Assembly (NCBI RefSeq): GCF_000016165.1
Contig: NC_009253.1
Location: 1,956,332 to 2,020,331, forward strand
DNA from: Desulforamulus reducens MI-1
Lineage (GTDB): Bacteria > Bacillota > Desulfotomaculia > Desulfotomaculales > Desulfotomaculaceae
Length of the DNA: 64,000 nucleotides
Direction of reading: 5' to 3'
Part shown: positions 249 to 7,316 of the stretch, in pieces
Numbering within the stretch: position 1 is the first letter of the stretch
Layout: the number at the start of each line of letters is the position of its first letter
Translations under genes and position numbers: made by a program
The notes under the pieces: model-generated
What the model saw: the letters and a program-made list of their open reading frames with translations, nothing else
Told to the model about the DNA's origin: nothing
Databases searched by the model: none

Positions 249-441
249 AATACCCAACTTGTAACATACATCTATCATAATGGTGTTTTTTATATGAATT
301 AGAACTTATTCATTAGATAGTAACCATTAAAGGATGGAAATTGCCAATTTCATTATCTATCAAACAAGATTAATATAACAAAATATACAAAACTTACAGA
401 CTATTCAAAAAATATAAGCTATAATGTACGAAAGGGTGAAC

Positions 442-1785
442 ATGATGAGCTCCTATGCTGATGAGTACAAAAGGAAACTAGTATCTGCCGATGAGGCAGT
501 AAAGGTTATAAAGTCTGGTGATTGGATAGATTATGGTCAATTTGCTGGCCAAGTTATTAGCTTAGATAAAGCTTTGGCAGCCAGAAAAGAAGAATTAAAG
601 GATGTTAAAGTCCGCGCCATGATGAGGGTTTCTGGTATGCCAGAAATAATAAAAGCAGATCCCGAGGCCGAATCCTTCTCTTTTATGAGCTGGCACTGCA
701 GTGGTATAGATAGAAAGCTTTGTGATCAAAACCTCTGTCACTATCTGCCAATGACCTTCAGAGAACTTCCTGTCATGTATGAACGAGACTGTCATGTGGA
801 TGTAGGAATGACTCAGGTCTCACCTATGGATGAACATGGTTATTTCTATTTTGGTTTGCAGAATTCCGCAACTAAAAGAATGCTTGATAAAGCAAAGGTC
901 GTCATCGTAGAAGTAAACAAGAATCAACCAAAGGTTTTTGGCGGAAACGAAGAATGCATTCACATTTCCGAAGTGGATTATATTGTAGAACACGACTCAC
1001 CGATGCCACTCATTCCATCCGCTCCTATCTCTGAACTAGATAAGAAAATTGCCAGCTATATTGTACCGTTGATTGAAGATGGTTCCACGATTCAACTTGG
1101 TGTTGGTGGAATGCCAAATGCTGTGGGCAACGCCATTGCACAATCTGATCTGAAAGATCTGGGTATCCACACCGAAATGTTCGTGGATGCAATGGTCGAT
1201 ATGGTTGAAGCAGGCCGTGTCACTGGTAAGAAAAAGAATATTGATAAAGGAAAAATAGTTTTTACTTTCGGCTTAGGTTCTCAGAAACTGTATGACTTTG
1301 TGCACGCTAATCCCATGATTGCAACTTATCCCGTTGACTATTGTAACTACCCAAATTACATTGCCATGAATGACAAAGTTATAGCCATTAATAACATTAT
1401 TGAAATGGACCTTTTTGGTCAGGCTTGCTCTGAATCAGCTGGACCAAGACATATTAGCGGTACTGGTGGTCAGCTTGATTTTGGAGAGGGGGCGTACTTC
1501 TCCAAGGATGGAAAAGCCTTCTTATGTTTCTCCTCTACCTTTACTAAAAAAGACGGTACTTTGATGTCCCGTATTCGTCCAATGCTGACAGAAGGAGCGG
1601 TGGTTACTACACATCGTGCTGTAACAAACTATGTTGTTACAGAATATGGCATAGTCAATCTGAAAGGGCGCAGCACCTGGGAAAAAGCAGAGGCCTTGAT
1701 TTCAGTGGCCCACCCTGATTTCAGAGATCAATTAATCAAAGAAGCTCAGAAAATGAATATTTGGCGCAAAAGCAATAAGAAGTAA
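442..1785 (+). CDS. acetyl-CoA hydrolase/transferase family CoA-transferase
   Basis: A 447-residue family I CoA-transferase related to 4-hydroxybutyrate and butyryl-CoA:acetate CoA-transferases. These move CoA between acyl-CoA and free carboxylates through a glutamyl-CoA intermediate. Visible motifs are [10 protein letters not shown] near residue 220, HTEMFVDAM near 245 (its Glu sits where the family's catalytic Glu lies) and GTGGQLDF near 340. Length fits the family. The ATG at 442 follows AAAGGGTG at good spacing; an in-frame ATG at 424 lacks a ribosome site. A thiolase precedes it and an acetate permease follows, which suits acetate exchange. The donor and acceptor acids are not determined. 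Confidence 0.9.
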
Positions 1786-1936: not shown

Positions 1937-2554
1937 ATGTCTCAAGGACACGGAACGGTGAATCCAGGACCGGCTGGTCTAGTTGCCCTCGCAATGGCTT
2001 GCTTTACTTTTTATGCAATACACACTGGAAAAGTTGATGGTTCAGCCGCACCCTTATTAGGTATTTGGTTAATTGGCGGTTTTGTAATCCAAGTTATTGT
2101 AGGTGTCATGGAGATAAACCACGGCAACGTACTAGGTGGTAACGTATTCACCTTCTTCTCCGCCTTCTTTATGTTGGTAACAGGCCTAGAGCTAATTTTC
2201 AAATTTTTTGCAGCTCAAAACGGCTGGACCATTGATTCCCGAATTGATGGTTGGGCATGGTTAGCACTAGCCATAGCGCTATTAACCTGGACCCCTGGTT
2301 ACTTAAAATCACCACTAAGCCTATTTTGTGCCGTGCTGGCACTTGATGTGGCTGTTCCTGTGGTTGCCCTCATGGACTTAGAGGTTCTTGGTCATGAATG
2401 GCATGTTATATCCGGAAACTTCCTTGGCCTAGGTGGGATCTTTGGTTTATACACAGCCTGGGGTATCGTATTAAACAGTGTTTTTGAAAAAACAATCATA
2501 CCACTTGGAGCACCGATTATAAAGCCTAAACAGACTAATACAGCATCAATGTAA
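1937..2554 (+). CDS. acetate uptake transporter, GPR1/FUN34/YaaH (SatP) family
   Basis: A 205-residue membrane protein with about six hydrophobic helices, the usual size for SatP/YaaH acetate permeases. The family signature appears near the N-terminus as NPGPAGLVALA (the canonical form is NPAPLGL). The ATG at 1937 follows AAAGGAGG at ideal spacing; the open frame extends upstream to 1862 but without a ribosome site. These proteins carry acetate or succinate with protons in six-helix oligomers. Placement after a thiolase and a CoA-transferase fits uptake or release of acetate or other short acids. Confidence 0.9.
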   Translation: MSQGHGTVNPGPAGLVALAMACFTFYAIHTGKVDGSAAPLLGIWLIGGFVIQVIVGVMEINHGNVLGGNVFTFFSAFFMLVTGLELIFKFFAAQNGWTIDSRIDGWAWLALAIALLTWTPGYLKSPLSLFCAVLALDVAVPVVALMDLEVLGHEWHVISGNFLGLGGIFGLYTAWGIVLNSVFEKTIIPLGAPIIKPKQTNTASM

Positions 2555-2725: not shown

Positions 2726-2955
2726 TGCAACATTTGTTGCATTTCATCAGTAACCAAAAATTTTATTATTCCAAATTATAGTCAAACATAGAAGACATCT
2801 TATAACAATGAATAAGTGAGTAATTCTTAGTATTACTCATATAATCAAAGGATTATTAGTTTTTTAGCAAATTAACTTAAAACATAATTTTTATCTTATA
2901 TAAAAAGAAATGCATTAGTGTTTTAGCACAACTTTGTTGGTTGCAATAATGCAAC
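2726..2955. promoter_or_regulatory. palindromic upstream activator sites
   Basis: Two inverted repeats built on TTGCA lie upstream of a sigma-54 promoter. One is TGCAACA-TT-TGTTGCA (2726-2741) and the other GTTGCA-ATAA-TGCAAC (2940-2955); a further half site occurs near 2999. Distances of roughly 100 and 320 bp from the promoter suit enhancer binding by a sigma-54 activator. The activator is not encoded in the window. Confidence 0.6.
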
Positions 2956-3029
2956 TCTTGTTAATGTGGTGACAAAACCATATATAAATTAAATCCTATT
3001 GCAACTGGCTTATGGTCCTTGTAACAGAC

Positions 3030-3046
3030 TTGGTATGATATTTGCA
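3030..3046 (+). promoter_or_regulatory. sigma-54 (-24/-12) promoter
   Basis: TTGGTATGATATTTGCA carries the invariant GG (3032-3033) and GC (3044-3045) exactly 10 nt apart, the hallmark of sigma-54 promoters. Upstream palindromes support the call. Transcription would start near 3056 and run toward a terminator at 3282-3308. Confidence 0.7.
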
Positions 3047-3055
3047 TTTTATGAT

Positions 3056-3308
3056 AACAGTCAACTCCAACATAGTGGAGCAGCTAGATTTAGGTTCTTC
3101 TCTACAACTAAAAAGATATGGTTAAGAGAGAGACAATTGTAATTGTACTAATTAAAAACAAACGGTACCATGCTGACGGGTAGTATCCTAATGCGAACTG
3201 CACCTGGTTATGGTAGACAAGGCTAAAAATAAGGTGTTTTCCGCTTGGAGCCAATGGACCGAGACGGGGGGTGTTTATTTTAAAAACCTCTTGAGTCGGG
3301 AGGTTTTT
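3056..3308 (+). ncRNA. unassigned structured transcript or leader before the pantothenate genes
   Basis: About 250 nt between a sigma-54 promoter and an intrinsic terminator, with no convincing gene. It holds several small hairpins, for example CTCCA...TGGAG near 3064 and CTTGG...CCGAG near 3244-3272. A 21-codon open frame at 3118 lacks a good ribosome site. It could be a small RNA or a terminator-controlled leader for the downstream DUF2520/panB genes. I could not match it to a known riboswitch, T-box, 6S, SRP or tmRNA pattern. Confidence 0.4.
3282..3308 (+). terminator. intrinsic terminator upstream of DUF2520 gene
   Basis: AAAAACCTC (3282-3290) pairs with GAGGTTTTT (3300-3308) and runs into a T tract. 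It sits only 50 nt before the next start codon, so it could be an attenuator or the end of a separate RNA. Confidence 0.75.
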
Positions 3309-3358: not shown

Positions 3359-4345
3359 ATGAAAAACAAACCTTCCTTTACTATTATTGGAGCTGGCAAA
3401 GTAGGAAGTGCCTTGGGTATCCTGTTAAAAGAGCGGGGATATACTCCTGCGGGAGTATTTAGTCGTACCCCATTAAACGCCCAGAAACTGGCGGAAAAAC
3501 TTCAAACGAAAAGATATAGTCAAGCCTCTGAGGCTGCTAAGGTGGCTGACATAGTTTTTATTACCACCACCGATAGGGAGATCGCCTCTACAGCCAGTAT
3601 GATTGCCCTAAAGGGAGGCTGTGGCCCCGGACAAATTCTTATTCATACCAGCGGGGCCCTTGCCAGTGATGTCATGCAGCCTGCCCGAGAACATGGAGCA
3701 TGGGCGATTTCGGTACATCCTTTACAGTCCTTTGCAGACGTTGAAAGTGCTAAAACTAACCTGCCAGGGTCTTGTTTTGCTCTGGAGGGGGATGAAGAAG
3801 CCATGGGCACTGCGCGTCAGTTAGTGGATGACCTTCAGGGCCAATATTTTACTATTAAAACAGAGGATAAGCCCCTATACCATGCTGCAGCGGTAGTGGC
3901 TTCTAACTACTTGGTATCTCTAATTCATTTAAGCACATCCATCTATCAAAGTCTTGGTTTGAGTGAAAAACAATCTTTGGATGCTCTGTTCCCATTAATC
4001 CAGGGAACAATCAATAATATTGCAAAGTCTGGACCTACAACAGCCCTTACTGGGCCAGTTGTCAGGGGAGACGGGGCCACCGTTATTAAGCATATGAAGG
4101 CACTAAAAGATCTAGACTGGCGAAATCAGGAGGCTTATCGCCATTTGGGACTTTATACGGTGGGTGTGGCCATTGAAAGTGGTCGCCTTTCACCCAAGGA
4201 GGGCACCGCCCTTAACAATATTTTTATGGAGGTAGAACAACATGAACAAAAGGGTAACCACTGCAGACTTCCGGCGTATGAAACAGGAGGGCAAATCCAT
4301 AGCCATGTTAACGGCCTACGATTATTCAATGGCTACACTGGTTGA
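3359..4345 (+). CDS. DUF2520 Rossmann-fold protein, candidate ketopantoate reductase (PanG-type)
   Basis: A 328-residue protein with an N-terminal NAD(P)-binding fold (GAGKVGSALG at about residues 11-20) and a helical C-terminal half typical of the Rossmann-like plus DUF2520 architecture. It starts at ATG 3359 behind GGGAGG. It lies directly upstream of panB, panC, panD and coaX. The cluster otherwise lacks ketopantoate reductase, the step from ketopantoate to pantoate. Non-PanE reductases called PanG are known from bacteria such as Francisella, and I recall them as related to this family, so that role is inferred. Odd: the frame runs about 100 nt into panB; homologues usually end near 4250, so the last 30 residues may be a lost-stop extension. 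Confidence 0.78.
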   Translation: MKNKPSFTIIGAGKVGSALGILLKERGYTPAGVFSRTPLNAQKLAEKLQTKRYSQASEAAKVADIVFITTTDREIASTASMIALKGGCGPGQILIHTSGALASDVMQPAREHGAWAISVHPLQSFADVESAKTNLPGSCFALEGDEEAMGTARQLVDDLQGQYFTIKTEDKPLYHAAAVVASNYLVSLIHLSTSIYQSLGLSEKQSLDALFPLIQGTINNIAKSGPTTALTGPVVRGDGATVIKHMKALKDLDWRNQEAYRHLGLYTVGVAIESGRLSPKEGTALNNIFMEVEQHEQKGNHCRLPAYETGGQIHSHVNGLRLFNGYTG

Positions 4346-5075
4346 CGCTTCCGGGATTGATGCTATCCTAGTGGGGGATTCCCTCGGCAATGTGGTTTTG
4401 GGGTACGATTCTACTGTGCCTGTTAACATGGATGATATGATCCATCACCTCAGAGCTGTCACTAGAGGGGTTAAAAGAGCTATGGTTGTCGGCGACATGC
4501 CCTTTTTGTCTTATCATATTTCCCGGGAAGAAAGTGTACGTAATGCAGGACGTCTAATGCAAGAGGGATTAGCCCATGCTGTAAAGTTAGAAGGTGGCTG
4601 CGAAGTGGCCGATACCGTAAAGGCTATCACAGATGCAGGTATCCCAGTAATGGGGCATTTAGGTCTAACGCCTCAGTCAGTTCACCAATTGGGCGGCTTT
4701 AAAGTACAGGGGAAGGACAGCGAAGCAGCCAAACGATTATTGGAAGATGCCAAACGACTTGAGCAGGCGGGTGTTTTTGCCATTGTACTGGAGTGCATCC
4801 CTCAGCAGTTGGCCAAAGTTATTACAGAATCTATCTCAGTGCCCACCATTGGCATTGGAGCGGGTGTAGACTGTGACGGTCAAGTTTTGGTAATTAATGA
4901 TCTGCTTGGGATGTTTTCAAATTTTACACCTAAATTTGTCAAACAATATGCCAAGTTAAAGGAACAAATTGTAGAGGCCTGTACTAGCTATGTAGAGGAG
5001 GTGAAAACCAAAGCTTTCCCAGGTCCCGAGCATGTCTTTAACATGAATGAAGATCAATTAAAAAAACTTTACTAA
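4242..5075 (+). CDS. panB: 3-methyl-2-oxobutanoate hydroxymethyltransferase
   Basis: A 277-residue PanB, full length for the family. It transfers a hydroxymethyl group from methylene-THF to alpha-ketoisovalerate to make ketopantoate, in the cytoplasm. Recognisable features are VGDSLGNVVLGYDST near residue 44 (metal and substrate binding), KLEGG, GHLGLTPQSVHQLGGF, and ECIP, whose Glu is the family's catalytic base. The ATG at 4242 follows GGAGGT and lies inside the end of the DUF2520 frame, so the two are probably translationally linked. panC follows after a hairpin. Confidence 0.97.
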   Translation: MNKRVTTADFRRMKQEGKSIAMLTAYDYSMATLVDASGIDAILVGDSLGNVVLGYDSTVPVNMDDMIHHLRAVTRGVKRAMVVGDMPFLSYHISREESVRNAGRLMQEGLAHAVKLEGGCEVADTVKAITDAGIPVMGHLGLTPQSVHQLGGFKVQGKDSEAAKRLLEDAKRLEQAGVFAIVLECIPQQLAKVITESISVPTIGIGAGVDCDGQVLVINDLLGMFSNFTPKFVKQYAKLKEQIVEACTSYVEEVKTKAFPGPEHVFNMNEDQLKKLY

Positions 5076-5166: not shown

Positions 5167-6012
5167 ATGAGACTCTGCAAAACCATTGAAGAGATTCGTT
5201 TGTTACTAAACACAGTCCGGAATAAAGGTAAATATATTGGTCTAGTGCCAACCATGGGGTTTTTACATCAGGGGCATCTGTCCCTGGTTCACGAAGCTAA
5301 ACGACACTGTGACGTAGTGGTTATGAGTATTTTTGTAAATCCCACCCAGTTTGGGCCTAACGAAGATTATGATGCCTATCCCAGGGACCTGCAACGGGAT
5401 ACAAGTTTGGCAGCAGAAGCTGGAGTTGATATTATCTTTGCTCCCCCTGCAGAGGAGATGTATCCTCAGGAATTTAGTAGTTATGTGGATGTAACTGGAG
5501 TCAGCGAGTCCCTGTGTGGTGGCTCACGGCCGGGTCATTTTAGGGGAGTAGCCACGGTGGTAACTAAACTATTCAATATTATACAGCCCCAAGCTGCATT
5601 CTTTGGCCAAAAGGATTTCCAGCAAGTGTTGGTTATTAAGCGTATGGTCGCAGACTTAAACATGCACGTGAAAATTGTTGACGTTCCAATCATGCGGGAG
5701 ATTGACGGGTTAGCCTTAAGTTCCCGAAATATCTACCTATCTCCAGAGGAAAGACAGGCTGCTTTGGTGCTATACCGCAGTCTAATGCTAGCCCAAGAAT
5801 TGATAGTCAATGGCGAGCGCGAAATCCGTCGGATAAAGGAAGCGGTCATCAAGGCTATTGGTGCGGAACCTAGGGCTAACATTGATTACGTGGAAATACT
5901 TTCAATCCCTAATCTTACCCCAATTGATCAGCTAAAAGGAAAAGCCCTGTTGGCTCTGGCTGTACGTTTTGGAAAAACAAGATTGATTGATAATACTGTT
6001 TTGGAGGCTTAG
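5167..6012 (+). CDS. panC: pantoate--beta-alanine ligase (pantothenate synthetase)
   Basis: A 281-residue PanC that joins pantoate and beta-alanine with ATP through a pantoyl-adenylate. It shows the nucleotidyltransferase HxGH motif (HQGHLSL, near residue 34), [28 protein letters not shown] and the KMSKS-like LSSRN near residue 180. Full length. panD begins 4 nt after its stop, so panC-panD are co-translated. Together with panB, panD and the DUF2520 gene it closes the route to pantothenate. Confidence 0.97.
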
Positions 6013-6016
6013 AAAA

Positions 6017-6400
6017 TTGTTGTTATTTATGTTTAAATCCAAAATACACCGTGCCACAGTAACCGAAGCTAATTTAAACTATATGGGAAGCATTACTATA
6101 GATAAGGAACTAATGGATGCAGCAGGGATTTTGCCCAACGAGAAGGTTCAGGTGGTAAATAATAATAATGGAGCACGCCTAGAAACCTATGTAATTGAGG
6201 GTGAACCAGGGTCCGGTGTTATCTGCTTGAACGGAGCAGCAGCTCGACATGTCCAAATTGGAGATACCGTGATTATTATTGCTTATGGCATGTTGAATGA
6301 ACAGGAAGCTCGATATTTTACACCTAAGGTCGTCATGGTGGATGAAAGTAACCGCATTAACGAGGTTATTAACCAGGAAATTCACGGGGTATCTAGATAA
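6017..6400 (+). CDS. panD: aspartate 1-decarboxylase proenzyme
   Basis: A 127-residue pyruvoyl enzyme making beta-alanine from aspartate. The self-cleavage site is the Gly-Ser of NYMGSITI. I choose the TTG at 6017, 9 nt after GGAGG (6003-6007). It places the cleavage pair at Gly24-Ser25, the same numbering as in E. coli PanD, and [12 protein letters not shown] then aligns with the normal N-terminus. An ATG at 6029 would be too far from the ribosome site. The Ser becomes the pyruvoyl cofactor. coaX follows after about 100 nt. Confidence 0.96.
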
Positions 6401-6506
6401 TCTAAGCATTAAATTAAAGGAAACATGTTATCAACGAACGAATGCTAGAAGGGTTATTTTTTACAAGAACTCCTTGTATATAACAGAAAGAAAGGTGGGA
6501 AGAACC

Positions 6507-7316
6507 TTGATTCTAGCAGTGGACATAGGAAATACCAATATTGTTTTTGGAGTCTTGGATGATAAATCCTTGTATGCCAACTGGCGACTGGCCACTGACC
6601 GTAACCGGACAGCCGATGAATATGGCGTTTTGTTAACGGAACTCTTTTGTTTATCTAATATTAATATGAAAGAAGTGAAGGGGATTATCATCTCTTCAGT
6701 GGTTCCTCCCCTCAATCCCATACTGGAATTCATGTCTGAAAAATATTTTAATATCTCACCCATACAGGTGGGTCCTGGTATTCGTAGTGGTTTGCATATT
6801 AAAATGGACAACCCCCGGGAAGTAGGAGCTGACCGTATTGTTAACGCAGTGGCAGCCTATTCCCTATATGGTGGTCCGTTGATTATTGTGGATTTTGGTA
6901 CAGCCACCACTTTCTGCTGTGTAACTGCCAAGGGGGAATACCTGGGGGGAGCCATAGCTCCGGGAATTGGAATTTCTACCGAAGCATTATACACAAAAGC
7001 ATCAAAACTGCCACGTGTGGAATTATCCAAGCCTAGCTCTATCATTGGTAAAAACACCATAACTGCCATGCAAGCTGGCATTATTTATGGCTTTGCAGGT
7101 CAAGTTGAATTCATTGTAAGACGTATGAAAAAGGAAATGAGCACCGAGACTCAAGTCATTGCCACCGGAGGACTAGCGGAGGTTATGAGTCAAGAAACCT
7201 CGGTCATTGACAAAGTAAATCCAATTTTAACACTACAGGGACTGAAAATCATATACGATCGTAATCAACCGCATATTGGAACAGGGTACCATCTTATTGC
7301 GGATCGGTCTCGTTAG
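6507..7316 (+). CDS. coaX: type III pantothenate kinase
   Basis: A 269-residue CoaX, an ASKHA-fold kinase that phosphorylates pantothenate, the first committed step to coenzyme A. Motifs are [11 protein letters not shown] at the N-terminus (phosphate binding), [12 protein letters not shown], and DFGTATTF. Start is TTG 6507 behind AAAGGTGGG; the open frame reaches back to 6297 but overlaps panD. Type III kinases are insensitive to CoA feedback and common in Firmicutes. Its place after panBCD makes this a biosynthesis-to-activation cluster. An 18-bp terminator hairpin follows. Confidence 0.95.

Follow-up and report, generated by a model that had tools for sequence, protein, structure and literature searches.

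A second pantothenate operon with a retained pan RNA leader, probably rewired to sigma-54 and tied to a beta-oxidation activator, in Desulforamulus reducens MI-1

Two described systems are among the closest to the locus reported here. The first is the pan motif RNA (RF01749; Weinberg et al., 2010, PMC2864571), which is made of simple tandem stems for which protein binding is as possible as a role as a ligand-binding aptamer; the passage on the motif in that paper suggests binding of a dimeric protein, a 2022 review states that no coenzyme A (CoA) riboswitch is known, and the literature that we found neither identifies a ligand or protein partner of the motif nor answers what it senses. The second is the family of CrbR regulons of Clostridium (PMC6615313), in which sigma-54 control of crt-hbd-thl-bcd-etf has already been predicted, so that sigma-54 control of beta-oxidation genes is not in itself new; the main text of that paper mentions no pantothenate gene for CrbR. 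Our analysis makes it likely that features of both are combined in a second pantothenate operon of D. reducens MI-1, which is rewired to sigma-54, attenuated by a pan RNA and tied to the activator of a beta-oxidation cluster. We have high confidence in the anatomy of this operon: its sequence elements, the architecture of its promoter and sites, the family matches, its status as a second copy and the loss of a promoter relative to its orthologues are all read directly from the DNA.

The window, that is, the whole 64-kb stretch analysed, corresponds to C1:1956332-2020331 of the closed 3,608,104-base genome, and pattern counts are genome-wide where no other scope is given. The features upstream of the predicted transcript start, which is expected near 3056 from the position of the -24/-12 element, are:

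424 to 1785, plus strand: CoA-transferase gene of the upstream beta-oxidation cluster (best match TIGR03948, under its cut-off)
1937 to 2554, plus strand: GPR1/FUN34/YaaH-type transporter gene, acetate uptake-like, a context gene
2726 to 2741, plus strand: distal predicted activator site, a perfect palindrome (TGCAACATTTGTTGCA) lying 305 nt before the -24 element
2940 to 2955, plus strand: proximal predicted activator site, GTTGCAATAATGCAAC, lying 91 nt before the -24 element
3030 to 3046, plus strand: sigma-54 -24/-12 promoter TTGGTATGATATTTGCA, with GG at 3032-3033, N10 and GC at 3044-3045

The first-pass annotation had proposed a GG-N10-GC promoter preceded by two TTGCA-based palindromes, and all three elements are indeed there. 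TTGGTATGATATTTGCA fits GG-N10-GC within a TTGGCAT-N5-TTGCT-like sigma-54 consensus, for which a clostridial version has been published, and it is the window's only 12/12 match, against an expectation of 0.3 in Markov sequence. Its 16-base core TGGTATGATATTTGCA has two copies in the genome, one at the pan leader and an identical one upstream of etfB at C1:1948172. The palindrome TGCAACA-N2-TGTTGCA likewise has two exact copies and none with one mismatch, while the perfect form of GTTGCA-N4-TGCAAC is found once, at the window pan locus. TGGTATGATATTTGCA and TGCAACATTTGTTGCA are paired at both of their occurrences, upstream of etfB and upstream of the pan leader, and this pairing is far beyond chance. 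A hairpin at 2621-2653 (about -23 kcal/mol, without a T-run) lies downstream of the transporter gene, where it may either protect the transcript coming from upstream or terminate it.

The etfB gene is the first of a butyrate beta-oxidation operon located 11 kb upstream, in the order etfB, etfA, 3-hydroxybutyryl-CoA dehydrogenase, enoyl-CoA hydratase, acyl-CoA dehydrogenase, HdrD-like protein and thiolase; a cluster of the same gene order, Dred_1778-1784, is expressed according to the D. reducens MI-1 proteome (PMC4759654). The distal palindrome TGCAACATTTGTTGCA of etfB lies 317 nt upstream of its -24 element, the equivalent distance at the pan locus being 305 nt. A promoter of this design occurs a third time, as TGGTATGAGACTTGCA, between the activator gene of this cluster and a gene for an Fe-S oxidoreductase, and the proximal sites stand at -91 (pan), -103 (etfB) and -103 (Fe-S oxidoreductase gene) relative to the -24 element. 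When the three regions are aligned, the sites are common to all and the remaining sequence has diverged, which suggests a maintained function and not a recent copy. Taken from the DNA, these features give us good confidence that the pan and beta-oxidation operons would share one regulon.

The neighbouring activator gene (C1:1943149-1945245, 698 aa) stands at the head of the beta-oxidation cluster and encodes CBS, two PAS, sigma-54 activation (AAA+) and helix-turn-helix domains. The search for a sigma-54 activator with TGCAACA-type sites that the first-pass annotation had called for leads to a gene heading the very cluster that shares those sites, and its binding to them is predicted. The genome holds one rpoN gene and 17 sigma-54 activators, two of which are close paralogues of this one (67% and 56% identical) and could compete for the pan and etfB sites. 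It is unlikely that the promoter is real and another activator, a close paralogue or another of the 17, is in control: one of the paralogues does stand beside another set of beta-oxidation genes, but neither perfect distal site lies outside the cluster adjoining the neighbouring activator gene, and paired sites are absent from other sigma-54 promoters, save for single looser ones (e.g. at an alcohol dehydrogenase gene, C1:2491459). The 67% paralogue, also a CBS-PAS protein (C1:432985-435081; L197:7986-10082), is encoded immediately before genes for thiolase, enoyl-CoA hydratase, acyl-CoA dehydrogenase and CoA-transferase, with which it forms a second activator/beta-oxidation pair in the genome; the 56% paralogue (C1:1928038-1930131; L198) has consensus sigma-54 sites nearby, at C1:1930584 and C1:1933714. 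Searched at an E-value of 1e-150, the eight remaining genomes of the genus yielded no orthologue of the neighbouring activator. The activator gene is also immediately preceded by a minus-strand gene for a DDE transposase (L038:1193-2647), and for these reasons the regulatory cluster may be mobile or laterally acquired.

The genes downstream of the promoter form a second, full copy of the pantothenate operon, best explained as an additional module for the pantothenate-to-phosphopantothenate route:

3359 to 4345, plus strand: DUF2520/Rossmann-like gene, perhaps a ketopantoate reductase
4242 to 5075, plus strand: panB (TIGR00222)
5167 to 6012, plus strand: panC (TIGR00018)
6029 to 6400, plus strand: panD (TIGR00223)
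6501 to 7316, plus strand: coaX, type III pantothenate kinase, one of two genome copies

Two panB genes are found in this genome only within its family, and the genome has two pan motifs. The other pan copy (C1:168083) still has cca as its neighbour, as do all eight further pan loci of the genus, and is thus the ancestral one; the window copy has no cca. The window operon ends in coaX; at the ancestral locus, the other coaX (76% identical) comes after nad genes. Since the window copy falls inside the genus (support 100/99) and yet is not sister to the 168-kb copy, it is either an old paralogue or received from a relative, in a tree too poorly resolved for the event to be dated or located. That the entire operon was duplicated recently was ruled out, since the proteins of the two operons are 69-88% identical and the copies are not tree sisters.

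In a genus alignment, each of the nine other copies has TATTAT a few bases before its pan motif; this box is broken in the window copy, where the orthologous -10/-35 elements are destroyed; what remains is a 4/6 match to a sigma-A -10, TACCAT, near 3166-3171, which could give basal transcription of the operon. Across the class we surveyed 108 pan-motif loci, counting as a sigma-54 site any match of 11/12 or better within 600 nt upstream. TAnnAT stands immediately upstream of the motif at 93 of these loci (16% in shuffles), and the script scan found a sigma-54 site at one alone, the window copy, in keeping with the earlier remark that it would be unusual for sigma-54 to control pantothenate genes. 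A scan of the contig collection, which may not include the window's own genome, for independent pairs of sigma-54 site and pan motif at gaps of 5-35 and 110-140 returned none; the plasmid collection gave no match, and two more perfect palindromes in the class were dismissed for their unrelated contexts. It is quite improbable that the sigma-54 element is decorative and that transcription of the second operon comes from residual sigma-A activity or from read-through out of the upstream cluster. The TACCAT hexamer and the upstream genes on the same strand speak for such transcription, but the orthologous -10/-35 is lost, the intervening 0.8-kb gap contains the strong hairpin at 2621-2653, and two perfect activator sites with matching spacing are not expected by chance.

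Between promoter and operon lie the following elements:

3056 to 3308, plus strand: predicted attenuated leader transcript of ~253 nt, bounded from the promoter and terminator positions
3177 to 3271, plus strand: pan motif RNA (RF01749; 56.0 bits against a gathering cut-off of 36.2; full length 1-92)
about 3177-3204 and about 3241-3269, plus strand: pan motif hairpins P1 and P2 of the covariance-model alignment
3258 to 3300, plus strand: predicted antiterminator, CCGA..GGGGGGUGUUU paired with AAAACCUCUU..UCGG, exclusive with P2 and the terminator
3282 to 3308, plus strand: intrinsic terminator, AAAAACCTCTTGAGTCGGGAGGTTTTT then TGTATTTT, ending 50 nt before the DUF2520 ATG (3359)

The first-pass annotation had described this stretch as about 250 nt without a convincing gene. 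No credible ORF was found in the leader, as it had said, but it had overlooked the known pan motif RF01749, here with its two hairpins, their conserved interruptions and a position upstream of pan genes, as well as the setting, a second pan operon whose promoter and sites are shared with a nearby beta-oxidation operon and its activator gene. A pan motif followed by a terminator in such a gene-free stretch indicates an attenuator leader and not a small RNA. The intrinsic terminator placed 50 nt ahead of the DUF2520/panB genes is confirmed, and the conserved structure to be sought upstream of panB/DUF2520 and the suggested terminator-controlled leader for pantothenate synthesis both find their counterpart in this known RNA, which has terminators downstream at nearly all pan loci of the class. 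That the short transcript is instead a sigma-54-dependent small RNA, the other option then offered, which would act in trans with pan read-through secondary, is very improbable. Although promoter and terminator bound ~253 nt ahead of a gene, 3177-3308 is conserved in cis as a leader of pan genes, a search of 40 other genomes gave no relatives for the 120 nt that only this transcript has, and the terminator is also present at sigma-A-driven copies. Conservation in close relatives, which that annotation had made a condition, holds for the leader RNA but not for the promoter region (0 of 40 other genomes), and the rewired pan promoter is known from one species. Several other genera (L069, L090, L148; G028, G029, G030, G033) carry the pan motif twice, before panC, panB or panD separately; the motif has thus followed the split pan genes. 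The window also contains a cobalamin riboswitch (RF00174, 57287-57482, 78 bits).

A terminator lies within 95 nt of the pan motif at 105 of the 108 class loci, as against 13 of 216 control stretches. The full window leader folds into P1, P2 and the terminator at -39.1 kcal/mol, and an alternative fold, in which the terminator 5' arm is bound by the 3' strand of P2 together with the GGGGGGUGUUU that follows it, reaches -36.6 kcal/mol, so that the two forms are predicted to be of similar stability. By predicted energies, leaders ending at 3293, 3297 and 3300 prefer the antiterminator and the terminator form wins by 3308. The mutually exclusive antiterminator is predicted for the window leader and for most of the genus. 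Across the class, the duplex of P2 and terminator arm has a median of -10.6 kcal/mol (-4.2 for linker controls), a pairing that is only modestly better than with shuffled arms, with z below -1 at 38% of loci. We thus hold attenuation by a choice between P2 and antiterminator with moderate confidence, as a prediction of folding models.

In our model, the second pan operon would have lost its sigma-A promoter and be read from a sigma-54 promoter of the etfB-operon design. Here we infer transcription, the activator among the 17 that binds, antitermination and the signals. The neighbouring CBS-PAS-PAS-AAA+ activator would most likely bind the TGCAAC/GTTGCA palindromes and open both the pan and the etfB promoters, so that the supply of CoA precursors would rise together with acyl-CoA metabolism; to judge from the shared design, CoA supply probably rises once acyl-CoA metabolism is switched on. 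The sigma-54 transcript would then cross the retained pan RNA and terminator, a second, feedback-like layer. If P2 is stabilised by a metabolite or protein, the terminator would form and only the ~253-nt leader would be made; if not, the 3' strand of P2 would pair with the terminator 5' arm and the pan genes would be read. It is a tentative extension of this model, and rather doubtful, that the pan RNA attenuates the CoA pathway by truly sensing a ligand (pantothenate, phosphopantothenate or CoA) and works in series with the sigma-54 activator of acyl-CoA metabolism, and our confidence in any particular ligand is low. If true, initiation would be set by demand and elongation by product.

The locus offers a natural case of a second-copy biosynthetic operon probably placed under a catabolic sigma-54 regulon with its leader RNA retained, linking the supply of a cofactor to the pathway that consumes it and extending predicted sigma-54 control to pantothenate/CoA precursor synthesis in Firmicutes. 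As its two copies carry the same RNA behind different promoters, initiation can be separated from attenuation, which opens a route to finding what the pan motif senses.

Among known systems, a computational link between sigma-54 and a pantothenate gene has also been made for panD in Flavobacteriia (PMC12316311), there in another phylum and by COG enrichment, in a passage that brings in neither a pan motif nor beta-oxidation. The CrbR regulons (PMC6615313) likewise combine a sigma-54 activator with upstream sites at butyryl-CoA genes, but the sites reported for CrbR consist of TGT/ACA repeats spaced by 10-12 bp, whereas those of the window are TGCAAC/GTTGCA pairs with a 4-bp spacer. The ancestral pan operon of Desulforamulus (C1:168083) has the same DUF2520-panB-panC-panD order after a pan motif and terminator, and differs in its sigma-A-like promoter, its cca neighbour and a coaX about 8 kb away after the nad genes. 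The RF01749 motif of PMC2864571 resembles the window leader in its tandem conserved hairpins directly upstream of pantothenate genes. The choice between terminator and antiterminator proposed here is not part of that paper's passage on the motif, and the window copy lies 120 nt downstream of a predicted sigma-54 start in place of a position a few bases after a sigma-A -10 box.
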